From Blautia sp. Marseille-P3201T (GTDB lineage: Bacteria; Bacillota; Clostridia; Lachnospirales; Lachnospiraceae), in contig NZ_LT635468.1 of NCBI RefSeq assembly GCF_900120295.1, positions 124,001 through 188,000 on the forward strand: a DNA stretch of 64,000 nucleotides, written 5' to 3'. Both the position numbers and the translations under genes were made by a program. A model generated the notes under the pieces. That model did no database searches. It was not told the DNA's origin and saw nothing but the letters and a program-made list of their open reading frames with translations. Positions 7,331-36,681 of the stretch are shown here, in pieces; position 1 is the first letter of the stretch; each line of letters starts with the position of its first letter.

Positions 7331-8365
7331 TTATCTTTCAGTTTCTGATTTCTGTTCCTCTTCTTTTATATTGCGAACAGACTCCCGGTATATAACCTTG
7401 CCGGGAATTCGGAATACACCTCCGCCCTTTTTCGTAGGGTTGTTCATGTGTTTTATCATACGCCGCGCTGCAAGTTTACCTATTTCTTCAATATCAACTG
7501 CCACTGTGGTAAGCGGCGGACTGCAAACCTGTGCGTAAATAGAGTTATCAAATCCTGCTACGGAAATGTCCTCCGGTATATGATAACCTTTTGCTGTTAA
7601 TTCCTTAACCAGCCGAAATGCCGTTTCATCACAGTTACATACAAATGCAGTAGGCATTTTTTTCGGAAGTTCTAAAGGAATTGCCTCACCTTCCTGACTG
7701 CGGTCCAGAATATTCCATACATCCTGGGGAGTAATATTATTTTCCATCATACTTCTTACATACCCCAAATAACGGTCTGTGATACTGGTAGTAGCTCCTA
7801 GTGTACCTACAAACCCGATTTCTGTATGTCCCTGATGTATCAGATAGTTTGTAATTTCATAACAGCTGTAAATATTTTCTGTTACTACGGAGTCTGATTT
7901 ATGTGTTTCATCATAGACGTCTACATATATCTTCGGAAGGTCAACAGCATCTAATCGTTTTTTTACTTCCCAGTCCAGTATTCCGAGAAATATCAGGCCA
8001 TCAAACATTCCCGACGATTTAATAGTCTGCAAATCTCCGGCAAGACTATTTCGGTTGGGTGATATCATCATGCTGGTGCAGGAGGATTTCTGAAGTTCAC
8101 TGATAATTTTTTCGTACATTGCCATGTAGAACTTGCCTTCGTCTCCTGAATTAAAACGATCGCTCATAATAATTCCGACTTTTTTTGTCTTCCTATTACC
8201 ATAATTCGGAAGTACATATCCCGATTTCTCTGCAAGTTCAGCAATTCGTTTTTTCAGGGCTTCGCCTACTCCTTCCTTGCCGTTTAACGCTTTGGAAACA
8301 GTAACCTTACTTATACCCAATTCGTCAGCTATATCTTGCATTGAAACTGCCTTTTTCTCAGCCAT
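7331..8365 (-). CDS. LacI-family transcriptional regulator
   Basis: A 344-residue repressor. Residues 8-28 (MQDIADELGISKVTVSKALN) form the classic LacI helix-turn-helix and hinge, followed by a periplasmic-binding-protein-like effector domain. It is first in the ABC-GH130-GH38 operon and probably regulates it in response to the imported sugar. Start ATG follows AGGGGG. The stop is 12 bp before the permease start, so one transcript is likely. The effector (mannose, mannobiose or a glycan fragment) is inferred only from the neighbours. Confidence 0.93.
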   Translation of the reverse strand: MAEKKAVSMQDIADELGISKVTVSKALNGKEGVGEALKKRIAELAEKSGYVLPNYGNRKTKKVGIIMSDRFNSGDEGKFYMAMYEKIISELQKSSCTSMMISPNRNSLAGDLQTIKSSGMFDGLIFLGILDWEVKKRLDAVDLPKIYVDVYDETHKSDSVVTENIYSCYEITNYLIHQGHTEIGFVGTLGATTSITDRYLGYVRSMMENNITPQDVWNILDRSQEGEAIPLELPKKMPTAFVCNCDETAFRLVKELTAKGYHIPEDISVAGFDNSIYAQVCSPPLTTVAVDIEEIGKLAARRMIKHMNNPTKKGGGVFRIPGKVIYRESVRNIKEEEQKSETER

Positions 8366-8398
8366 AACATCCCCCTTTTCCCTAACATTTCTATAATA

Positions 8399-8427
8399 AA
8401 TCTATCACTTTTTGGAGGTTTCGTCAA
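8399..8427 (-). promoter_or_regulatory. probable promoter of the LacI-ABC operon
   Basis: On the minus strand TTGACG (8422-8427) is followed after 17 bp by TAGATT (8399-8404), about 34 bp before the regulator ATG. The -35 is strong and the -10 moderate. Confidence 0.6.
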
Positions 8428-8545
8428 TAACTTTTAGCCTTTTCATATATAATGCACACTTTTACTAAATACTTTTTGTATATAATTGCTAATTTTAGGA
8501 GGGTTACTTTTAACTTTACAATTCTTTTTATTACTTAACACTTGT

Positions 8546-11149
8546 TTACAAAACTGTAAACTCATCTCTAAATATTATGTTTTCTGCATTATCTCCGAGA
8601 AACACTTCAAATTTTCCCGGCTCCACAGACCAGCCATATTCAGGACTTAGCGTTCTCATCTCCTTTGGTCCGATAATTATTTCCACAGTACGGGTTTCTT
8701 TTGGTTCAAGCTCCACTTTTGCAAATCCTGCCAGCGCATAATATGGTTTTACTGTAGAGCTGACTTGATCCCTTAAATAAATCTGGGGAACTGCAGCTCC
8801 TTTTCGGCTGCCTGTATTCACAATCGTAACCGATACTATAATACTCTCCCCTTGATGAATTTCTTTTTTGGAAAGTGTCATATCTGTAAATGAAAATGTG
8901 GTATATGTCTGTCCATATCCAAAAGGATAGAGAGGCAGCCAGTTCATTTCCACATATCGTTTCCCACCTCCGGGGCGACGACTGTAGTGACAGGGAATTT
9001 GACCTACATGTTTTGGAAAGGTCATAGGCAGACGACCTGAAGGCGCACAATCTCCAAAAAGAACCTCAGCTATAGCATAACCGCCCTGTTCCCCCGGAAA
9101 CCACGCTTCTAAAATTGCCGGGATATGCTCCTGCTCCCAGACAGCTGTAACCGGGCGCCCACTTTGCATCACCAATACAACAGGGGTTCCTGTTGCATAT
9201 ACCGCTTTTACGAAATCAAGCTGTCGCCCTGGCAGATCCAGACTCACCCTGTCAAAATTCTCTCCACTGGTTTCAATATTGTCCCCTACGCAGACAACTG
9301 CCACATCTGCCTTTTTCGCTGCTTCAACGGCCTTTGTGAAATCCTCTTTTCCGCTGTTATATCCAAAGATAACTCTGGCAGCACGGCGATCATTGGTAAA
9401 TACAATGCGAACCTTATAAGCCTTTCCTTCCTCGAAATGGAATTCTGCCATCTGATTGGCATCATGGTTTTCCCCCCAGCCGTCAATTAAAAGTTCCTCA
9501 TCTATATATAACTGCATACTGTCCTGCGTACTGAAGCCAATACAACCTTCCAACTCATACGGCATTTTCACGTACCCTGTCCAAACTACACTAAAAGCTG
9601 CCGCATCAAGATCCGGATGTGGTTTTGCAAAAATCCAGTTAAAGTTAATCATTGAGTCTGTTCTGACACATACCGGTTCTCCTTTTGGTGTTCTTCCGTT
9701 ATAATAGCGTCCTGTAAGCCCCGGCTTTCCCTCTTCATCTAATAGCATCCCCGGATGAAAAGGTGTTACCATATCTCCCAGAAAACTACAGCCCTTTTCA
9801 TATAAAACTTTTGTTTCTTCTGATACTGTATTGCGAATACCTTCCAATACAGATACTGCATAAGGCACTCCTGACTCTACACAATAATCTCCCAGTACCG
9901 GTGTCGCTGCCGCAGGTCCTAACACAGCAATACTCTTAATATCCTTTTTCAGTGGAAGAATTTCTCCTTCATTTTTCAAAAGACAAATGCTTTCTGCCGC
10001 AATCTGTTTTGCTAAATCCAAATGTTCTGTACAGCGATGCGTTTTTTCCTCTCTGTCCTCCTGTGTATAAGGATTATCAAAAAGACCTGTCAGAAATTTC
10101 ACTCTCAGTACACGGCGGCACGCCTGATTAATCACTTCTTCTGACAGTCTTCCTGTTTCTACCAGTTCTTTCAGTCCTTCCTGCCACTCCTCATGTGGAT
10201 AATCATATAACTGTAAATCTACACCGGCTTCCAGTCCCATAGCCATTGCTTCTTTACGGCTGTCGGCTACATAGTGTTCATCATACAAGCGGACAATAGC
10301 TGTAAGATCTGAACGAACAAAACCACGCATTCCATACTGATTTCTCAGTACTTCCGTCAACAACTCATAGTCTGAGGAAACAGGATTTCCATCAATAGAA
10401 TTATAGGAACACATCGTGTCTACTGCCTTTCCCTCTGCAAATGCAGCTTCAAAAACAGGCAGACATTCTGCAAACACATCATGACGCCCCATAGAAGAAG
10501 GGGCACAGTTTAAGCCTCCTACCGGACTTCCGTAACCCACATAATGTTTTGGTTCTGCAGCCACGGCATCCGGCGCTGCCAGATCATCCCCCTGCATTCC
10601 AAGCACTGTTTCTCTGGCAAACTGAGCACTTAAATGTACATCTTCCCCATAAGACTCTTCTGTTCTTCCATAACGGGGATCACGGCTTAAGTCCATAACA
10701 GGACTATAAGTTTCATGTATACCTACTGCTCTGGCTTCTGTAGCTATCGCATGTCCCATTTTTCGCCCAAGCTCCGGATGAAAAGTGGCTGCAAGTCCTA
10801 TCTGCTGCGGAAAGCAGGTCGCTCCGTTACGGAAAATACCATGTAAAGCCTCTTCACTAAACAAAAAAGGAATTCCCAGTCTTGTATTTTCTACTGCGTA
10901 GCGTTGCAGCTCATTTGTCTGGCAGGCATTCATCCCTCTTGTCTGAATACTCCCTACACTATTTCCTTTTAATAATTCTTCTACAGTATTCATGAACAGC
11001 TCTGTCACATTTCCATCTACATCCCATTTTGTAAAATCATGAGAATAATACTGATCTGTCTGAAGAATTTTTTCTTCCAGTGTCATTCTGGATATTAAAT
11101 CATCCAGTCGTTCTTCTATTGATAAATCTTTATTTTTATACGGATACAT
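8546..11149 (-). CDS. GH3 beta-glycosidase with PA14 insert
   Basis: An 867-residue family 3 glycoside hydrolase. The N-terminal barrel carries the nucleophile motif GFVRSDL (Asp near residue 281) and the substrate motif KHYVGYG near 201-207. The second domain carries the acid/base region GENFDR. A PA14-like insertion lies about residues 470-620 and a fibronectin-III-like domain closes the protein. Cytoplasmic: no signal peptide. The open frame extends 50 codons further upstream into the MFS gene, but the ATG at 11149 is preceded by AGAGGG and begins the family sequence (MYPYKNKDLS). Last gene of the ROK-GntR-PMI operon. Usual substrates are beta-glucosides, but the family also removes beta-GlcNAc, xylose and others; the neighbours hint at glycan work. 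Confidence 0.92.
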   Translation of the reverse strand: MYPYKNKDLSIEERLDDLISRMTLEEKILQTDQYYSHDFTKWDVDGNVTELFMNTVEELLKGNSVGSIQTRGMNACQTNELQRYAVENTRLGIPFLFSEEALHGIFRNGATCFPQQIGLAATFHPELGRKMGHAIATEARAVGIHETYSPVMDLSRDPRYGRTEESYGEDVHLSAQFARETVLGMQGDDLAAPDAVAAEPKHYVGYGSPVGGLNCAPSSMGRHDVFAECLPVFEAAFAEGKAVDTMCSYNSIDGNPVSSDYELLTEVLRNQYGMRGFVRSDLTAIVRLYDEHYVADSRKEAMAMGLEAGVDLQLYDYPHEEWQEGLKELVETGRLSEEVINQACRRVLRVKFLTGLFDNPYTQEDREEKTHRCTEHLDLAKQIAAESICLLKNEGEILPLKKDIKSIAVLGPAAATPVLGDYCVESGVPYAVSVLEGIRNTVSEETKVLYEKGCSFLGDMVTPFHPGMLLDEEGKPGLTGRYYNGRTPKGEPVCVRTDSMINFNWIFAKPHPDLDAAAFSVVWTGYVKMPYELEGCIGFSTQDSMQLYIDEELLIDGWGENHDANQMAEFHFEEGKAYKVRIVFTNDRRAARVIFGYNSGKEDFTKAVEAAKKADVAVVCVGDNIETSGENFDRVSLDLPGRQLDFVKAVYATGTPVVLVMQSGRPVTAVWEQEHIPAILEAWFPGEQGGYAIAEVLFGDCAPSGRLPMTFPKHVGQIPCHYSRRPGGGKRYVEMNWLPLYPFGYGQTYTTFSFTDMTLSKKEIHQGESIIVSVTIVNTGSRKGAAVPQIYLRDQVSSTVKPYYALAGFAKVELEPKETRTVEIIIGPKEMRTLSPEYGWSVEPGKFEVFLGDNAENIIFRDEFTVL

Positions 11150-18509: not shown

Positions 18510-19505
18510 CTATAAATTTTCTTCTAAAAATCTTTTCACATTTCCATAAAATATTTTTTCAATCTGATGATATCTAAGTCCTTCTCTCTCCATTGTTTCT
18601 GCTAAAATCCCCAGTTCTCCGGCATTTTGCATTTCCATAGGAACCTCTTCAATTCCGTCAAAATCACTTCCCAATCCTATACAGTCTTCACCTCCTATAT
18701 GAATAATATATTTTATTTGTCTTATCAATTCTGATAATAAAGCGCCTTCTTCTCCTGGTCTCCAGTTCTCTCTTACAAAAGATACACAAAAATTCAATCC
18801 CATAACTCCACCTTTTTCTGCTAAAATACGAATCATGTCATCTGTAAGATTGCGGGCGGCCCTTGGTGTAATACCTCTGGCATTTGAATGTGATGCCAAA
18901 AATGGGCGTTTTGCATACTTTGCCACATCATAAAATCCCCCATCTGAAAGATGAGAAACGTCTACAATAATACCTAGAGACTCCATCTCCTCTAACATTT
19001 CAAACCCTTTTGCTTTCAATCCTGCTGTCTCGCCTGTACTCCACACATCTCTTTCCAAAGGATTATAAAATTGATTAGGATATCCCAAAGTATTTTCGTA
19101 ATTCCATGTCAGAGTTGCCATGCGAACACCCTGTTCATAAAATTTATGGAGCATTTCGGGATTTTTTTCATAGCTGGCCCCTTCTTCTAAAGACAAAAGA
19201 GCAGAAATCTTTCCTATTTTTTCGTTTTCTTCTATATCTTTATAAGTAAATACCTGGGAAATTTCCTTACTGTTTTTTGCCATTTCCTCCCGAAACAGTT
19301 TTAACATTTCCTGTGCTGTACAAAAGCAATCATCCTCTGCATCTCGGTCTACAAAAAGGGCAAAAGTCTGAAGCCCATAGTTGCCTTTTTTCATCTTTTC
19401 TATATCTAAATGCAGATTATTTTTTCTCAGCTCTGCCATTTCGTTGCGCCTTCTTTTTTCATAGAGAGCGCTAATCGTATCACAATGCATATCAAAAACT
19501 TTCAT
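18510..19505 (-). CDS. M19 membrane dipeptidase (renal dipeptidase-like)
   Basis: A 331-residue zinc dipeptidase of family M19. The start is MKVFDMHCDTIS, with the metal-binding HxD (HCD) near residues 7-9. Further motifs are SHSNARGITP after residue 200 and GLGSDFDGIE near 295. The open frame has 14 more codons, but ATG at 19505 has GAAAGG upstream and starts the family sequence. It begins 5 bp after the stop of the Ig-repeat protein and so is probably the third gene of the kinase operon. M19 enzymes cleave dipeptides, often with one D residue; a role in recycling cell-wall or peptide fragments is inferred. Confidence 0.92.
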   Translation of the reverse strand: MKVFDMHCDTISALYEKRRRNEMAELRKNNLHLDIEKMKKGNYGLQTFALFVDRDAEDDCFCTAQEMLKLFREEMAKNSKEISQVFTYKDIEENEKIGKISALLSLEEGASYEKNPEMLHKFYEQGVRMATLTWNYENTLGYPNQFYNPLERDVWSTGETAGLKAKGFEMLEEMESLGIIVDVSHLSDGGFYDVAKYAKRPFLASHSNARGITPRAARNLTDDMIRILAEKGGVMGLNFCVSFVRENWRPGEEGALLSELIRQIKYIIHIGGEDCIGLGSDFDGIEEVPMEMQNAGELGILAETMEREGLRYHQIEKIFYGNVKRFLEENL

Positions 19506-19510
19506 TTTTC

Positions 19511-22500
19511 TCAGCCTTTCTTTCTTTTTACGTTCAGTATAAAACAACTCCTTTTCTTTTTCCAGACAAACAAAAATCCCCCTGCTGCTATTATCCCAAA
19601 AATAATCTCAAAATTTTTTTTCGGTTCTTCCCTTATAAAAGAATTTGGCATTATAAGCACTTTCATCTTTTCCATTTTCGTTATATTATCTGCCGCATCC
19701 TTTGCAATAACTTCTATATTCTGCCATTCATCTTTACTCAAAACTACCTCTTTTATAATCCCATCCTGTGCCTTTAATTCCTCCCTTCCATAAGTCGTTT
19801 CCCTGTCACCGATTTTCACAACTGTCTCCTCCAAAGCTAAATTGTCTTTGATATCAATTACAATATCCTTTTTTAAGGTCTGATATCTCCTGTCTCCTTC
19901 TATTCCTGAAAGAATAATTGTAGGGGGTGTTTTATCTACTGTAAAAGAAATAGGCAATACTTCTGCATTATTCATAATATTATCTGCCATATCCCGGGAA
20001 TTTAAAATAATTGTATAATTCCCCTCCTGACGGAAATTTTCTGCCTTTATTTTATAATAATTCTTCTCCCATTTTCCTTCTTTCCCCAGTTCTTCCACTG
20101 TATAATCAATTCCCGCTTTTAAATTTTTAAGTTCACCATCTCGATTAATGGTAAGTGTTCTTTCTTTAATTAAATCTATATTATACTCCAGAATACCTAT
20201 GTCCTTTCCTTCCCTTATATAAGTATGATTTTTCCCATCTGTAGACAGCCAGCTTTGAGTGTCTAAATCCGGCATATAAATAGAACCACAGCGGTTTACA
20301 GAAAATTCAATCACTTTCTTTGCCCAATTCCCGGCTTTATCCACAGCCGTTACAGAAAGTTTATAAATATCATCTGCCTTTGCCTCTCGAGGAAAATCTG
20401 CAATCTGTATACTCTCTCCCTGTTTCGTCCTCTTCACCGTTTTCTTCACATCTAATTTCTTATTATTGCTTCCTGTAATATCTATGGCAAACCCACCCAT
20501 TTGATAATTTAAATCTCTGATTTGAATGAAAGGCGCTACTGTATCTCTATTTGCAGACTTATCTCTCAAGTTTAAAATTATGATTTCCGGGATATCTAAA
20601 TCCACACAAAATTTTTCAGATTGAAACTCCTCAGACTGATTTCCGGCTCGATCTGTACATGAAATATTCAAGATATATTCTCCGCTTTCTTGATAACAAA
20701 TCTTGGCTTTGTGCAGATCTTTTTCTGTAGAAAACTCTGTAAGTACAGGTCCTTTTCCATCACCTTCTGTTAATATCTTTACCTGATTTTCATCAAAATT
20801 TTTTTCTTTAATTACAACAGTTGCAACTCTTTCTCTATTAAAATATTTTTCAGTGCCTGTAACATCATAATTATAAGATACTTCTATAACCGGTCTCATC
20901 CTGTCTATCACAAAGCTTTCTGTCTTCTCATATTTTTTTACATTCCCTGCACCATCCATACAAGATACCGAAAATTGATATTCCCCATCTTCTTCAAAAA
21001 TAATACGGCATTTATTTCTCCATCCGTCTGCCTTCCATTTTCCTATTCTGGCATTTCCCTTTATATCAAACTTCACACCAGTCGCATCAAAGTTTCTGTC
21101 TTTAACCTCTACCTCTGCTGTTCTCCGGATATTATAATATCCCTTCCCTTGCGGTTTCTCTGTATCCCACTTCACTGAAATCTCAGGATAGTCCGTATCA
21201 ATTTTAAAATATATCATTTTTTCCGCTTCATTTCCGGCATAGTCCAAAACTGTAACTCTCACACAGACATCATTACTGTTATTCTTTTGCGCATTAATTT
21301 TATAAGAAAGTATAATTTTTTCACTTTCTTCCCTTTCTTCTAAAGACCATTGACGGAAAAGTGTTTCCTTTCCGGTTTCTTCTCCTTCACTGGTAACACA
21401 GACTTCCACTTTTGCTACAGCAGACTGTCTGTCTTGCACAGAAATATTTAACTCTATATCCTCTCCATAAATTCCGGTTTTCGGAATTTTCTGCCGGTCG
21501 TCTACCTTAATTTCTATTTCAGGTCTATGCCGGTCTGTCATAATCCCATCAGAAACATAAATTTTCGTATGTCCTAAATTATCTTCCGCTTTTATAAAAA
21601 TAATATAATTCTTTTCCGCTTTTGGAAGTTCTATACATCCATTTAATTCTGCATCTCCCTTTTTCCAGTCTTCTGCTTTTATTTCTTCAGTAATATATTT
21701 TCTAATTTCTTCCTTTGTAAATTTCCCTTTTTTCCCCATAACATGATAAAACCATCTCTTAACACCACTTCCTTCTTTATCTTCTAATTGAAACTCCTCC
21801 TTTACCCTATCCTGTGAATAAAATTTATGAAATATAATCTTTTCCGGCATTTTCTCATAATCGTACATATTATCACTGACTGTATTTTTAACTATTTGGG
21901 GAGCACAGCAATCTATAAAAACTGAAATTTCAAAGGTCTGAGATTTCGCTTTATTATTGCGGTTATAAAGATAAACAGAAAGTTTTCGCTCTTCTCCCTC
22001 CTGAAAATTCTCTCTTGAAAAATCTAACCCTTCTCCATTTTGGCTGATAATTTCACCTGTTTCCGTACATACATCTGTGTAGAAACCGGCTCTTATATTT
22101 TCCTTTAGCAATACACGGAACTCCTCTATTTCTCCATCAACCCAGAGTTTATGAGGATTTTCACTAATGTACACCTGTGTTTTATTTGTTTCAAAATCGA
22201 CATACTGAGAACTTTCCTTAATCTCCTCTTCCCTGATCACCAAATTTCCACAGGAAACTCCCTCATAATTAAAATAATAGTTGGCTCCTGCATCACCATT
22301 CCGATTTACTGTAATTCTATCTTCCCATTCTCCCAATGGGTAATCCGGCATATTTTCTTTTTCAATTTCTTTTTCACAAGGAGTAGGATATAGCACCTGT
22401 TCATTTTCCAGCAATCCTTCTGTTTCATTGTTAACATAACTTTCCCGATCTTCCTGCACAGGTGTATCTGTTTCATAGGTAATTTCATTATAATGCCCGT

Positions 22501-23083
22501 ATTCCCTTGTTCCTCCTTCTATTTTCAAATTTATTTTTCTCTTTTTTATTGTAATACTCCCATTCAATCGTACTTTTTCATTTTCTAAATCCACCCTATA
22601 TTTCTGTGCATCTTTTCCTTCTAATTCCACCTTTGTAAGAATTATAGAAACCTTCTCACCCTCGGTTACATCTTTTACGCTGTCTTCCATAATCCCTTCT
22701 ATTTCTTTTATAAATACTTCATCCTGCTTCTCAATTCCCAAAATCTGTATATCATTTATATTTTCTATCTCATCTTCTGTCTCAGGATTGTGAAACACGC
22801 GAAAGTCATTTCCATCATATATTTTAGAGTATTTCAACATTTCTCCGTCCTTCATTTTAAGAATTACAGGTATTCTCTCATCTGTAAACCCCTGAACACA
22901 CTCCTGCTGCATAAAACAGCCTGCTATGAGAAACAGACCGAGTACAGAAATTATCCTCCATTTTTCATTTCTTTTTATCCTAAAAAACATCCAGATTGTA
23001 ATTGCCAGACATAAAATGCAAAAACTAAAACAACCTTTTTCAAGGTACTGATACAGACAAATCTGCTTTTGTATTTCCGCCAT
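19511..23083 (-). CDS. large Ig-like-repeat surface protein
   Basis: A 1190-residue protein with two hydrophobic N-terminal segments (about residues 15-34 and 42-58), a long extracellular region and a C-terminal membrane anchor (about 1157-1175) followed by a basic tail. From about residue 520 the sequence repeats an Ig-like pattern: a D-x-x-x-P-x-I opening (DRHRPEIEI, DTDYPEISV, DRMRPVIEV, DLDIPEIII, DKTPPTIIL), then beta strands ending in a D-x-A-G-N turn. At least five such units are visible. Start ATG follows GGAGG and overlaps the last 44 bases of the kinase gene, so expression is tied to the kinase. I do not recognise a named family. It is probably an exported, membrane-anchored sensor or adhesin whose cytoplasmic parts could contact the kinase. 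Confidence 0.8.
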   Translation of the reverse strand: MAEIQKQICLYQYLEKGCFSFCILCLAITIWMFFRIKRNEKWRIISVLGLFLIAGCFMQQECVQGFTDERIPVILKMKDGEMLKYSKIYDGNDFRVFHNPETEDEIENINDIQILGIEKQDEVFIKEIEGIMEDSVKDVTEGEKVSIILTKVELEGKDAQKYRVDLENEKVRLNGSITIKKRKINLKIEGGTREYGHYNEITYETDTPVQEDRESYVNNETEGLLENEQVLYPTPCEKEIEKENMPDYPLGEWEDRITVNRNGDAGANYYFNYEGVSCGNLVIREEEIKESSQYVDFETNKTQVYISENPHKLWVDGEIEEFRVLLKENIRAGFYTDVCTETGEIISQNGEGLDFSRENFQEGEERKLSVYLYNRNNKAKSQTFEISVFIDCCAPQIVKNTVSDNMYDYEKMPEKIIFHKFYSQDRVKEEFQLEDKEGSGVKRWFYHVMGKKGKFTKEEIRKYITEEIKAEDWKKGDAELNGCIELPKAEKNYIIFIKAEDNLGHTKIYVSDGIMTDRHRPEIEIKVDDRQKIPKTGIYGEDIELNISVQDRQSAVAKVEVCVTSEGEETGKETLFRQWSLEEREESEKIILSYKINAQKNNSNDVCVRVTVLDYAGNEAEKMIYFKIDTDYPEISVKWDTEKPQGKGYYNIRRTAEVEVKDRNFDATGVKFDIKGNARIGKWKADGWRNKCRIIFEEDGEYQFSVSCMDGAGNVKKYEKTESFVIDRMRPVIEVSYNYDVTGTEKYFNRERVATVVIKEKNFDENQVKILTEGDGKGPVLTEFSTEKDLHKAKICYQESGEYILNISCTDRAGNQSEEFQSEKFCVDLDIPEIIILNLRDKSANRDTVAPFIQIRDLNYQMGGFAIDITGSNNKKLDVKKTVKRTKQGESIQIADFPREAKADDIYKLSVTAVDKAGNWAKKVIEFSVNRCGSIYMPDLDTQSWLSTDGKNHTYIREGKDIGILEYNIDLIKERTLTINRDGELKNLKAGIDYTVEELGKEGKWEKNYYKIKAENFRQEGNYTIILNSRDMADNIMNNAEVLPISFTVDKTPPTIILSGIEGDRRYQTLKKDIVIDIKDNLALEETVVKIGDRETTYGREELKAQDGIIKEVVLSKDEWQNIEVIAKDAADNITKMEKMKVLIMPNSFIREEPKKNFEIIFGIIAAGGFLFVWKKKRSCFILNVKRKKG

Positions 23084-24854
23084 TTTTTACACCTCCATCT
23101 GCAAAGGCAGCCTCCACACTCCTATGCGCTGCTAAAAGATTTTCACATAAGGTTTCTTTCATTTCTATTTCATAAGCAGCATTTATTGTGCTTTCTTCTA
23201 TCTTCATCTTTGATAAACTCTTCTCCATTTCTTTTAATTGCTCTTCCATTTCTGTTTCCGATACGCCTGCTTTTCTAAACTCCGAAGCACAGGTAATCAT
23301 TTGAGATAATAGCTCCTTATAACTTAATAACATATTTGACCTGTTCGCTCCACGAAGTCTGTCATCCTCTGCAATTTCTACCAAATCCGCCCAGTAATCT
23401 TTATAAGAAATCTCCGTATTTCCACCCTGATGATAAACACCTAGGTTCTCATAATAGGATGCAATCTTATAAAGTTTCTGTGCTCTGGTAATGTCTTTTT
23501 GTTCTAATTCTTCTGATGGTTTTCCCTCCCCTGCTATTTTCAGCCATTTCTGAGCCGCCCCTTTGTTTCCAACCCCATTGTAGGAATAAAAATATGCCAA
23601 TCCCAGATTATATGCAAAACTCTCATATTCTTTTTTGCATGCCTTTAAATATTCTTCATTTCTCTTTTTCTCTTCTCCTGTAACTCCCAGCATTTTTCGA
23701 ATAAATTCTTCCTCTTCCTTTGAAAAAAAGCATACAGCATATCCCTTAATCCGGTTTTGTCCCTGATTATCTATCCAAAGAAAAGTATTCAAAAGCTCTT
23801 TGTAACCTCTGCTGTCTTGAGGATTAAAAGTAATTGCCATCTGATAATATTGCCGATATTCTTGCCCTTCTACTGCACGCTGTGCTTCGTACAGACAATC
23901 TTCATATACATCTGTTCTAAAGTCCTTTTCTGTTTTATAAAAAACAAAACTCAAAGATCCGAAAGCAATTGTCAGAATTGCAAAACAGGAAAAAATAACT
24001 TTTCGCAGTTTTTGAACATTTCGGTACTCCATATCAAAGTCATAATAGTGAAAAAGATCTTGTTTCAATTCTTCACAGCTTTGATATCTGTCAGAAGGAT
24101 TTTTTCTCGTACACTTCAGAATAATAGTTTCAATGCCCGAAGATAAATTTACATTCCAATAGCGAATAGGATAAATTTCATAAGGTTGTTTCGCTGGATT
24201 ATGACCTGTAAGAAGATAGTATAAAGTTACTCCCAAACAATAAATGTCTGTTCGCACATCCGTCTGGCCACATCCTCCGTACTGTTCCGGTGCAGCATAT
24301 CCCTGTGTTCCCAGATAAGTCGTATCTTCTTTTTCCATCTCCTTAAATTCCCTGGCCGTTCCAAAATCAATCAGCATCACCCTTCCGTCTGCCTGCAACA
24401 TAATGTTTGATGGTTTCATATCACGATAAATAATCGGAGGTTGTTGTGAATGTAAATAACTCAAAACATCACATAATTGTTTTCCCCACTCCACAACATC
24501 CTCCTGCTTCTGTGGGCCAAACTCCTGTACAATATTTTCTAACTGTCTTCCTTCGATATAGTCCATCACAAGCAAAAAAGTCTCTTCCCCTTCGATAATA
24601 TCCACAATATCAGGCAGGTTTGGATGATGAAGTCTTTTGAGCAAATCTGCCTCTGCCAGAAGTCCTTGCCGGACAATTTCAAAATCTTTCACTCCTTCCT
24701 TTTTTACTTCTTTAATCGCCCAATATCGGTTTACTTTTTCATTTACAGCCAGATATACAACACTCATTCCCCCTTCACCTAATTTTTTTAAAATTCGATA
24801 TCGGCCATCAATAAGTTCACCTGTTTGCCGCGTAGTATCACCTTCCTTTTGCAA
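23040..24854 (-). CDS. membrane Ser/Thr protein kinase (PknB-type)
   Basis: A 604-residue Hanks-type kinase. The kinase domain is complete: glycine loop GEGGMS at 27-31, Lys48 in WAIKEV, catalytic Asp145 in YRDMKPSN, DFG at 163-165, and APE in GYAAPEQYG near 188-190. A membrane helix is at about 286-306. The outer part is helical and TPR/Sel1-like (LGLAYFYSYNG, AAQKWLKIAGEG) and not the PASTA repeats of the wall-sensing PrkC group. The start is a TTG at 24854 with a poor ribosome site; no in-frame ATG or GTG lies before the kinase fold. It is followed by the Ig-repeat protein (overlap) and an M19 dipeptidase. Target and signal are unknown. Confidence 0.9.
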   Translation of the reverse strand: MQKEGDTTRQTGELIDGRYRILKKLGEGGMSVVYLAVNEKVNRYWAIKEVKKEGVKDFEIVRQGLLAEADLLKRLHHPNLPDIVDIIEGEETFLLVMDYIEGRQLENIVQEFGPQKQEDVVEWGKQLCDVLSYLHSQQPPIIYRDMKPSNIMLQADGRVMLIDFGTAREFKEMEKEDTTYLGTQGYAAPEQYGGCGQTDVRTDIYCLGVTLYYLLTGHNPAKQPYEIYPIRYWNVNLSSGIETIILKCTRKNPSDRYQSCEELKQDLFHYYDFDMEYRNVQKLRKVIFSCFAILTIAFGSLSFVFYKTEKDFRTDVYEDCLYEAQRAVEGQEYRQYYQMAITFNPQDSRGYKELLNTFLWIDNQGQNRIKGYAVCFFSKEEEEFIRKMLGVTGEEKKRNEEYLKACKKEYESFAYNLGLAYFYSYNGVGNKGAAQKWLKIAGEGKPSEELEQKDITRAQKLYKIASYYENLGVYHQGGNTEISYKDYWADLVEIAEDDRLRGANRSNMLLSYKELLSQMITCASEFRKAGVSETEMEEQLKEMEKSLSKMKIEESTINAAYEIEMKETLCENLLAAHRSVEAAFADGGVKNGGNTKADLSVSVP

Positions 24855-25110: not shown

Positions 25111-27015
25111 TTAAAATTTAAATACAGCAACTCCATAAGCAGGCAACGGATACGCAAAAGAATAAGGTCTTCCGTCACATTCTTTTTTCACTGCTTTGTA
25201 GTCTACAACTTCTTTATGTACATCACCGCCAAATTCCGGCTCTTTACTGTTTAAAATCAACTTATACTGCTTCCGTTTCGGCACTCCTACACGGTAATCA
25301 TCCCTTGCTACAGGCGTATAATTAATTACAAATAACAAATTGTTTCTGCCTGTAGGAGACCAGCGCACAAAGCTGTAAATACTTCTGGCAGCATCATCTG
25401 CATTAATCCATTCCAGTCCCTGATAATTACTGTCATTCGCATATAATGCCGGATATTTTTTGTACATTTTCAGCAATTCCTTCACATAATTTTGAAGCTG
25501 CTGATGGTTTTGTTCTCCCAGCAAATACCAGTCTAATTCCCGTTCTTCGCTCCATTCCTGATACTGTCCGAAATCTTGTCCCATAAACAATAATTTCTTG
25601 CCCGGATGTCCAATCATATAGGAATATCCTGCCTTTAAATTCTCAAACTTATCCTGACCAAGTCCCGGCATTTTATTGATCATAGAACATTTCAGATGCA
25701 CTACTTCATCATGAGAAAGCACTAACACATATCTTTCGCTGTAAGCATAAGAAGTTGAAAATGTCATTTTATGATGATTGTATTTTCTAAAATACGGATC
25801 CAGCTTCATATATTCCAAAAAGTCGTGCATCCATCCCATGTTCCACTTCAGAGAAAATCCCAGTCCACCATCTTCTGGTTTTCCTGTCACCATAGGCCAT
25901 GCTGTAGACTCTTCGGCAATCATTACAACACCTTTATGTTTATTCAAAACAATGGAATTCAAATGACGGAAAAATTCAATAGCTTCTAAGTTCTTATTTT
26001 CACCATATTGATTTGGAACCCATTCCCCATCTCTGCGTCCATAATCCAAGTACAACATAGACGCAACTGCATCGACACGTAATCCGTCAATGTGAAATTC
26101 TTCCAGCCAGAACAGTGCATTTGCTATCAGGAAATTTTTAACCTCATTTTTGCCATAGTCAAACACCTTTGTTCCCCAGTCCGGATGCTCTCCTTTTCTG
26201 GGATCTGCGTACTCATAAGTAGGCGCACCGTCAAAATCTGCCAGTCCATGAGCATCCTTTGGAAAATGTGCCGGTACCCAGTCCAAAATAACACCAATTT
26301 TATTTTTATGCAGATAATTAACAAAGTAACGAAAGTCCTCTGGCGTACCATAGCGGGAAGTAGGCGCATAGTATCCTGTTACCTGATATCCCCATGAGCC
26401 ATCAAAAGGATGTTCCGCAATTCCCATAAGTTCTACGTGAGTATAGCCCATTTCTTTCACATATTTTGTCAATTCATGAGCCAGCTCCCGATAATTATAA
26501 AAGCCCGGATCATCTTCTCCCTGCGCCGGATGTTTTTTCCATGAACCCGGATGAACCTCATAAATAGACATGGCATCCTTGTCCACATCAAATTCCTCTC
26601 TCTTTTTCATCCAGACACTGTCTGACCATTTATAACCTGTTAAGTCCACTACTCTTGAAGCATTACCCGGTCGAAGCTCCGAATAATTTGCATAGGGATC
26701 TGCTTTATACAATAAGTCACCTTTCTGAGTAGTAATGCAGAATTTATACAAATCCCCTTCTCGCACCTTAGGAATAAAAAGCTGATAAAGTCCCATATTA
26801 TTATCACACTTCATAATGTCTGCCTGCGGATCCCAGTCATTAAAATTTCCAACCACAGAAACTGCTTTGGCATGTGGCGCCCAGACAGCAAAGAAAACAC
26901 CTTGTCGCTTTCTGTTCACCCCCACATGTGCCCCCAGCAGCTTATAAATTTCATAATGAGTTCCTTCCCCAAACAAATATCGGTCCAACTCCGTAATTTT
27001 CATATTAACACCCAT
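25111..27015 (-). CDS. glgB: 1,4-alpha-glucan branching enzyme
   Basis: A 634-residue GH13 branching enzyme that cuts alpha-1,4-glucan and rejoins the piece through an alpha-1,6 bond, making glycogen. A CBM48-type N-terminal domain (about 15-120, with VGNFNDWDP) precedes the barrel, which has GLRVDAVASML (nucleophile Asp), MIAEEST (acid/base Glu) and LSHDEVVH (third acid). A GH13 C-terminal beta domain follows. Length is usual for Clostridia. Start MGVNMKI has GGAGG at a good distance. It is preceded by a TetR regulator (15-bp gap) and no other glycogen gene is near, so it is an isolated glgB. Confidence 0.96.
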   Translation of the reverse strand: MGVNMKITELDRYLFGEGTHYEIYKLLGAHVGVNRKRQGVFFAVWAPHAKAVSVVGNFNDWDPQADIMKCDNNMGLYQLFIPKVREGDLYKFCITTQKGDLLYKADPYANYSELRPGNASRVVDLTGYKWSDSVWMKKREEFDVDKDAMSIYEVHPGSWKKHPAQGEDDPGFYNYRELAHELTKYVKEMGYTHVELMGIAEHPFDGSWGYQVTGYYAPTSRYGTPEDFRYFVNYLHKNKIGVILDWVPAHFPKDAHGLADFDGAPTYEYADPRKGEHPDWGTKVFDYGKNEVKNFLIANALFWLEEFHIDGLRVDAVASMLYLDYGRRDGEWVPNQYGENKNLEAIEFFRHLNSIVLNKHKGVVMIAEESTAWPMVTGKPEDGGLGFSLKWNMGWMHDFLEYMKLDPYFRKYNHHKMTFSTSYAYSERYVLVLSHDEVVHLKCSMINKMPGLGQDKFENLKAGYSYMIGHPGKKLLFMGQDFGQYQEWSEERELDWYLLGEQNHQQLQNYVKELLKMYKKYPALYANDSNYQGLEWINADDAARSIYSFVRWSPTGRNNLLFVINYTPVARDDYRVGVPKRKQYKLILNSKEPEFGGDVHKEVVDYKAVKKECDGRPYSFAYPLPAYGVAVFKF

Positions 27016-36486: not shown

Positions 36487-36652
36487 TTCACTGTCCTTTT
36501 GCCTGAGAGATTCACAGACCATGTCTGCTTACACCTTCGGCACCCTTTTCGGGATTCTCCAGAGAGCCATCCAGATGCAGTCCTGCTTTTTTCAAAGCCC
36601 CTGAGAGTATTACTCCTTCGGTGGGCAATTTTGCCTCTTTCCTGCAACCTTC
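36487..36652 (-). ncRNA. tandem glycine riboswitch
   Basis: Two glycine aptamers are visible on the minus strand. Aptamer 1 (about 36573-36652) holds CCGAAGG and ACTCTCAGGGGC. Aptamer 2 (about 36487-36572) holds GCCGAAGGTG and CTCTCAGGCAAAAGGACAG. Both motifs are conserved in the gcvT class. A terminator follows at 36387-36413, with the symporter gene next. Confidence 0.95.
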
Positions 36653-36681
36653 TATTGGCACAATATGCAAATAACGATTTT

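Follow-up and report, generated by a model that had tools for sequence, protein, structure and literature searches.

We analysed a 64,000-nucleotide stretch of the genome of Blautia sp. Marseille-P3201T (contig NZ_LT635468.1, positions 124,001 to 188,000; hereafter the window), whose minus strand carries, in this order, genes for a membrane Ser/Thr kinase, a long immunoglobulin (Ig)-like membrane protein and an M19 dipeptidase (Table 1). The kinase and the Ig protein probably constitute a receptor-kinase pair of the type found in T7SSe, a form of type VII secretion system (T7SS), consisting of a TseD counterpart and a TseH::TseI fusion and living without a secretion system. The kinase has the TseD outer domain, a TseI-type gene is linked to it, and no EssC was found in the genome, which is 99.72% complete. 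The existence of the pair without a T7SS suggests a self-standing surface-sensing unit. The original prediction, made from the sequence of the window, held that no described system has this make-up; this statement was overturned, as the TseD-TseI pairs of T7SSe and T7SSd match it in make-up and gene order in what the published survey reports of them (Garrett, Higginson and Palmer 2024, PMC11217815). What is new here is therefore not the make-up, but the kinase genomes that lack EssC, an excess of a T-x-V/I-L motif, the fusion of TseH to the Ig protein with loss of phosphatase and tail, and the distribution of the M19 gene. A literature search in one library, whose coverage mostly lacked subscription journals, turned up no previous description of such a pair outside a T7SS.

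The gene layout was as predicted: the kinase (24854..23040) and Ig protein (23083..19511) genes overlap by 44 bp, and the M19 gene starts 5 bp after the Ig stop codon if ATG 19505 is its start. The kinase matched Pfam Pkinase with 170 bits, and catalytic residues K48, D145, N150 and D163 are conserved in 78 of 78 aligned kinases, which rules out a pseudokinase. The predicted lack of a PASTA domain was borne out by a Pfam scan without a PASTA match and by an NCBIfam PknB_PASTA match of 213 of 450 bits confined to residues 12-272. The predicted TPR-like nature of the outer part likewise agreed with an all-helical AlphaFold model (mean pLDDT 82.6; for both proteins, modelling used the window sequence together with named relatives) and with a match of the outer-part profile to TPR proteins at residues about 328-359. 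Foldseek with the kinase model listed kinase domains, and was therefore uninformative on the outer part. Codon ACG at 24833-24831 aligns to the ATG start of the kinases in two Blautia relatives, G003 and G008 (G numbers denote compared genomes, with G000 the window genome, and L numbers fetched loci), with the same ribosome-binding site upstream; an in-frame TTG lies seven codons farther upstream. Because the aligned start is ACG, the true start of the kinase is uncertain. Among G000, G003 and G008, both genes gave ratios of nonsynonymous to synonymous substitution rates (dN/dS) of 0.09-0.19, at dS values of 1.4-2.2 that are near saturation. Together with the intact catalytic residues, this purifying selection implies that the reduced pair is not simply decaying.

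Relatives were sought by searching 80 related genomes with the Ig protein (22 matches), 20 Blautia genomes with the outer part of the kinase, and 396 Lachnospiraceae genomes (completeness filter 90%) with a profile of the kinase outer domain. The last search gave 112 matching genomes at E 1e-8, of which the 66 with at least 100 bits were kept and the other 46 set aside; gene order was inspected in up to 20 kb around the matches. Since the gene caller missed open reading frames lying under antisense ones, it overlooked the M19 genes of G002 and G012 and the kinase gene of L291. The usual order in relatives is a PP2C phosphatase gene, the kinase gene, a gene for a single-helix TseH and a gene for a very long Ig protein, as at the locus of Blautia hansenii (L236). 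Some relatives add a DUF6382-FHA protein, WXG100 proteins and an EssC-type ATPase, and loci with kinase, PP2C, TseH, Ig protein, EssC and WXG100 together occur in G051 and, inside Blautia, in G010. The published component list of T7SSe comprises TseA, TseA2, TseB, TseC, TseD, TseF, TseH, TseI, TseJ and TseK (PMC11217815). Architecture and linkage identify the kinase as a TseD counterpart, and the Ig protein is large, contains Ig-like domains and ends in a membrane helix, as TseI does; homology of the two to the T7SSe pair is very probable on these grounds.

Kinase and Ig protein form a genuine, conserved pair. Non-redundant kinase loci with upstream sequence of 1.2 kb or more and downstream sequence of 2.5 kb or more numbered 61 (duplicates and loci near contig ends were dropped, and 20 further loci were not fetched); at 53 of them a TseI-type protein is encoded on the same strand no more than 4 kb away. 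At 16 of the 19 loci fetched from EssC-less genomes, a TseI likewise lies at most 4 kb away. Three of the eight misses have a TseI fragment 8.6 kb away (L257) or a TseI cut by the contig end (L234 and L238), and four others are L252, L261, L270 and L286. At the remaining locus, L297 of G409, a 946-residue surface-like protein without a match to the TseI profile (7665-10505) follows kinase, PP2C and TseH, possibly a swap of the outer partner. The predicted role, surface sensing with the kinase as signal transmitter, is retained as the most likely use of the conserved pair, without the M19 dipeptidase as a regular partner.

No secretion system was found with the pair in the window genome. The search for EssC returned an FtsK-like match of 111 bits over stretch 470-661, against a profile cut-off of 778 bits that was applied to this genome and the 80 relatives, and nothing at E 1e-50, the threshold used for the 396 genomes; WXG100 proteins, the counterparts of TseA and TseA2, gave no match in the genome. 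With neither found, a working T7SS is rejected for this genome. The window locus also lacks a PP2C gene (TseF), a DUF6382-FHA gene (TseJ; one is present elsewhere in the genome) and a separate TseH with a cytoplasmic tail, of which only the helix is found, fused to the Ig protein. The sole PF13672 PP2C match of the genome lies directly before the gene of a PASTA kinase, PrkC. Within Blautia, EssC and WXG100 exceeded their cut-offs in the same 3 of 20 genomes (G002, G004 and G010). The kinase was found in 17 of the 20, and 14 of these 17 lack both EssC and WXG100, 3 of the 14 being less than 90% complete; G008 gave one sub-threshold WXG100 match, in a 580-residue frame. In the family-wide set, scored for EssC where the Blautia genomes were scored for WXG100 as well, EssC was present in 106 of 396 genomes, and the 66 kinase genomes divided into 34 with EssC anywhere in the genome and 32 without it. 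The survey of T7SSe and T7SSd was built from EssC neighbourhoods, and EssC-less loci were therefore beyond its reach (PMC11217815).

The original description of the second protein as membrane-anchored, 1190 residues long and with Ig-like units was confirmed, with the correction that two membrane helices are present at the N terminus besides the one at the C terminus. The AlphaFold model (mean pLDDT 67.3) places a helix hairpin at residues 2-35/40-58, a beta domain at 70-197, a run of beta-sandwiches at about 440-1145 and a C-terminal helix at 1155-1188, with residues 192-439 poorly modelled; Foldseek with this model gave for the most part unspecific beta-sandwich matches, which included SiiE and invasin. 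A TseH profile matched residues 1-66 with 21.9 bits, a score reached by none of 5000 layout-keeping shuffles (maximum 16.6), and it matched the fused Ig proteins of G018 and G006 with 37.8 and 27.4 bits. This match on the first helix implies that a tail-less TseH became the N terminus of TseI, and by profile and model the window Ig protein is a fusion of the TseH membrane helix, its tail lost, to TseI. The two-helix N-terminal layout is common to the Ig proteins of G003 and G008 despite their weak TseH scores. In another genus (G383, L290:8862-12473), at a locus likewise without PP2C, TseI has apparently acquired a TseH-like helix in a separate event; this protein has two N-terminal helices and a TseH profile score of 11.4 bits.

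The tail that is missing from the window protein carries a recurring motif in many relatives. T-x-V/I-L occurs 101 times in 58 distinct TseH tails, 42 of which bear it, where 300 shuffles gave 6.5 on average and never more than 13, although the 58 proteins are related and the occurrences are not independent events. The control motifs S-x-V/I-L and T-x-V/I-A were found 3 and 2 times (5.1 and 4.9 expected). T-x-V/I-L also lies ahead of the FHA domain in five of five TseJ proteins examined, and the TseH tails of L149 and L052 contain several copies each. In their recognition of phosphothreonine, FHA domains give weight to the residue at +3 (PMC3953482). The excess of T-x-V/I-L in TseH tails is what would be expected of phosphothreonine sites for FHA domains, and in the full forms the motif is likely to be a phosphorylation site. 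The passages of the survey that treat the TsdH and TseK tails describe them as short and unstructured and mention no motif (PMC11217815).

PP2C and TseH tend to be present or absent together: across the 61 loci, 48 have both, 8 neither, 2 PP2C alone and 3 TseH alone. Of the eight loci that lack both, three belong to the reduced form of Blautia, one (L048) retains a TseH-like helix whose short tail is without the motif, and another (L286) has both genes farther off; the table thus represents few independent co-losses. The co-occurrence fits a phosphatase acting on the TseH tail. No PP2C gene was found beside the kinase gene in the window, G003, G006, G008 or G018, where G018 offers only 1.2 kb of upstream sequence. 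The kinases of L303, L304, L307 and L290 (G207, G161, G407 and G383) form one group with support 0.967 in a 78-row tree, and at none of these loci was a separate TseH found; PP2C is absent from L290 and L303, and the contigs of L304 and L307 end before the place of PP2C. The DUF6382-FHA gene of the window genome (L143:9551-10795, G000:C9) lies in a T2SSE/T2SSF-type (Tad-like) cluster beside a rhomboid gene. DUF6382 matches occur in 63 of the 80 relatives, and EssC is above the cut-off in 15 of the same 80. The protein of the Tad-like cluster could possibly serve as a phosphothreonine reader without a T7SS.

From the relatives, the full form would work as follows. The membrane-held Ig rod and the TPR-like outer part of the kinase would detect some event on the outside of the cell; the kinase would phosphorylate T-x-V/I-L on the TseH tail and on TseJ; the FHA domains of TseJ and of the EssC ATPase would dock on the phosphorylated motifs; and the PP2C phosphatase would reset the switch. 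The window lineage is without ATPase, WXG100, PP2C and TseJ at the locus and TseH tail, and keeps the kinase with its active site, the outer domain, the fused TseH helix and the Ig rod under purifying selection. These losses from around a retained core imply that the kinase most likely has the Ig protein as a sensing partner that acts on it directly, and we consider such action of a sensor rod on the kinase somewhat favoured. Output would pass to substrates elsewhere in the cell, perhaps shared with PrkC, and M19 would be the third gene chiefly by position.

Several described systems resemble parts of this scheme. T7SSe shares the membrane kinase with a helical outer part and the long Ig-like protein with a C-terminal membrane helix, and the relatives of the window pair add the single-helix TseH and the PP2C and DUF6382-FHA neighbours; the window differs in its lack of EssC, WXG100, a PP2C and a TseJ at the locus, in the lost TseH tail and fused helix, and in the M19 gene downstream (PMC11217815). 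T7SSj combines a kinase with a TPR outer domain, TsjD, with TsjI and lacks a separate TseH, but relatives of the window pair have TseH and no T7SS was found in the window genome (PMC11217815). In the type VI secretion system of A. tumefaciens, PpkA marks the membrane protein TssL with phosphothreonine, Fha binds the mark and the phosphatase PppA opposes it (PMC3953482); this likeness is one of working only, with no family relation claimed, and the window form lacks the marked tail. The PASTA kinases PrkC and PknB share the kinase domain (PknB was the top Foldseek match) and the single membrane helix, whereas the window kinase has no PASTA domain and the same genome encodes a separate PASTA kinase beside its PP2C gene.

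The original prediction grouped all three genes in one operon, with a sensor perhaps linked to wall or peptide turnover. A true three-gene system, in which the kinase-Ig sensor would control, or be fed by, the M19 dipeptidase and tie such turnover to signalling, we regard as unlikely. The third protein is an M19 dipeptidase, with a PF01244 match over the cut-off, solved relatives (best PDB match 3fdg, E 3e-33) and, when the frame listed from TTG 19547 is begun at ATG 19505, a Pfam match from residue 1. Its putative metal ligands were judged by eye from motifs of the family. The M19 gene lies directly downstream of the pair in five of five reduced-form Blautia loci, after glgB in G000, G003 and G008 and after another gene in G006 and G018, where the genes overlap by 4 bp. 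G006 and G018 kinases group with the window kinase (81/98; 0.907 in the second, 78-row tree), whereas their M19 proteins group with those of their own clade (89/95, in a tree without G002 and G012), as do their glgB genes. The kinase-Ig-M19 block was therefore either held together through rearrangement or arose twice, and a functional M19 link in the window lineage is possible. Against a three-gene system, M19 was matched in 13 of 20 Blautia genomes, in 11 together with the kinase; it adjoins the pair in 5 of the 17 kinase genomes, lies elsewhere in 6, all with the full form (G001, G002, G010, G012, G017 and G019), and has no match in the other 6; some of the genomes in these counts are incomplete drafts. 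Under the refuting condition set with the original prediction, that homologues regularly occur apart, M19 thus fails, and the predicted link to wall or peptide turnover finds no gene-linkage support outside one lineage. In G005 and G009, which lack the kinase, M19 directly follows glgB, the upstream neighbour of the window pair, and in G010 about 29 kb separate the two, in the order glgB, FHA protein, PP2C, kinase, TseH, TseI, second kinase, EssC, WXG100 and M19. This second kinase (L041:13499-15397), directly after TseI and before EssC, is a further TPR-bearing Ser/Thr kinase. At six PP2C-less or TseH-less loci of other genera (L290, L300, L303, L304, L307 and L308) there is no M19; the PP2C-less L278 has an M19-like frame, but 5 kb off. 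The M19 protein also has no membrane helix detectable by hydropathy. In the simplest history, glgB and M19 were once separated by the T7SSe genes, whose loss placed M19 beside the Ig gene. M19 is rejected as a general core member, though it may be one in a single lineage, and is probably an old chromosomal neighbour whose presence is mainly positional.

Two further explanations carry even less weight. If the pair were part of a working T7SS, the Ig protein would span the envelope as a conduit or recognize targets, as proposed for TsdI, and the kinase would gate secretion; the components are the same as those of T7SSe, and G010 and G051 hold the genes in one T7SS locus. This role is already contradicted in the window genome by the missing EssC and WXG100, is at odds with the 14 of 17 kinase Blautia and 32 of 66 family kinase genomes that lack EssC, and is very improbable. 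Alternatively, the pair could be what is left of a vanished T7SSe, functionless, in decay and preserved by chance, for which one may cite the loss of PP2C, TseH tail, TseJ, EssC and WXG100, the ACG at the aligned start codon and the long kinase branches. Such a relic is improbable, since full reading frames persist in five species-level genomes, dN/dS is low in three, the catalytic residues are kept and EssC-less pairs occur in many genera.

The preferred reading, a T7SSe-type pair without its secretion system, also has evidence against it. Kinase and EssC presence are associated (odds ratio 3.8, p 2.7e-6, where the Fisher p values of this and the PP2C/TseH table treat related genomes as independent), and the link of the kinase to secretion is real in many genomes. 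The TseD and TseI assignments were made by architecture, gene order and EssC-bearing loci, and not by comparison with the reference sequences of the survey. Against the TseH profile, the fused Ig protein of G003 scores weakly (12.9 bits), and that of G008 lacks significance over its whole length (-1.5 bits; best stretch 13.1). T-x-V/I-L is missing from 16 of the 58 TseH tails, and also from that of B. hansenii as read by eye. L297 has kinase, PP2C and TseH, and no TseI was found there. An ACG start of the kinase may mean weak expression in this strain. The distance correlation between kinase outer domain and Ig protein, calculated from rough profile columns, is weak (partial r 0.13, reached by 0 of 2000 permutations), and co-evolution by this measure was dropped as support.

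More tentatively, and with the balance somewhat against it, TseD-TseI could at root be a self-standing envelope-sensing kinase module that T7SSe borrowed as a trigger. The Ig protein would then be a receptor rod and not a conduit, T-x-V/I-L on TseH would be a phospho-code read by FHA domains, and the Blautia form would be stripped to a TseH-helix-bearing Ig receptor acting straight on the kinase.

Table 1. Features of the locus, with positions counted from the first nucleotide of the window.
Feature	Position	Strand	Basis
TseD-like membrane Ser/Thr kinase, 604 aa	23040..24854	minus	Open reading frame from TTG 24854; aligned start codon ACG 24833-24831
Cytoplasmic kinase domain, residues 19-266	24057..24800	minus	Pfam PF00069; Foldseek top match M. 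tuberculosis PknB kinase domain
Kinase membrane helix, residues 283-301	23952..24008	minus	Hydropathy; long helix 270-326 in model
Outer all-helical TPR-like domain of kinase	23043..23951	minus	AlphaFold model; profile match to TPR proteins
Fused TseH::TseI-like Ig-repeat membrane protein, 1190 aa	19511..23083	minus	Open reading frame, Pfam, TseH profile, model; 44-bp overlap with kinase
First membrane helix, remnant of separate TseH minus cytoplasmic tail	22976..23083	minus	TseH profile match
Second membrane helix, at place of unfused TseI signal/anchor	22898..22954	minus	Hydropathy, model, position relative to relatives
Beta domain, residues 70-197	22493..22876	minus	Model; weak YDG-like match, Pfam YDG E 0.045 only
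Ig-like beta-sandwich array, residues about 440-1145	19649..21766	minus	Pfam Big_13, Big_3_4, Big_3_3; model
C-terminal membrane helix	19520..19621	minus	Model; hydrophobic C terminus of relatives; window sequence below hydropathy threshold
M19 dipeptidase gene, 331 aa	18510..19505	minus	PF01244 289 bits; 5 bp after Ig stop; probably positional
glgB, upstream flank for tracing locus history	25111..27015	minus	Open reading frame; comparison with relatives

Elsewhere in the window, a tandem glycine riboswitch with two aptamers (Rfam RF00504) lies on the minus strand at 36488-36654.

Export conduit and aid to target recognition are the roles that the survey proposes as possible for the Ig protein (PMC11217815). 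If EssC is missing from about half of the kinase genomes of the family (32 of 66), the first of these roles cannot be general, and the secretion-free genomes provide a natural test of how the pair works by itself. In TseH and TseJ, the T-x-V/I-L repeats would offer a concrete, testable phosphorylation code for the switching of these secretion systems, in a setting of common gut bacteria that includes Blautia hansenii.

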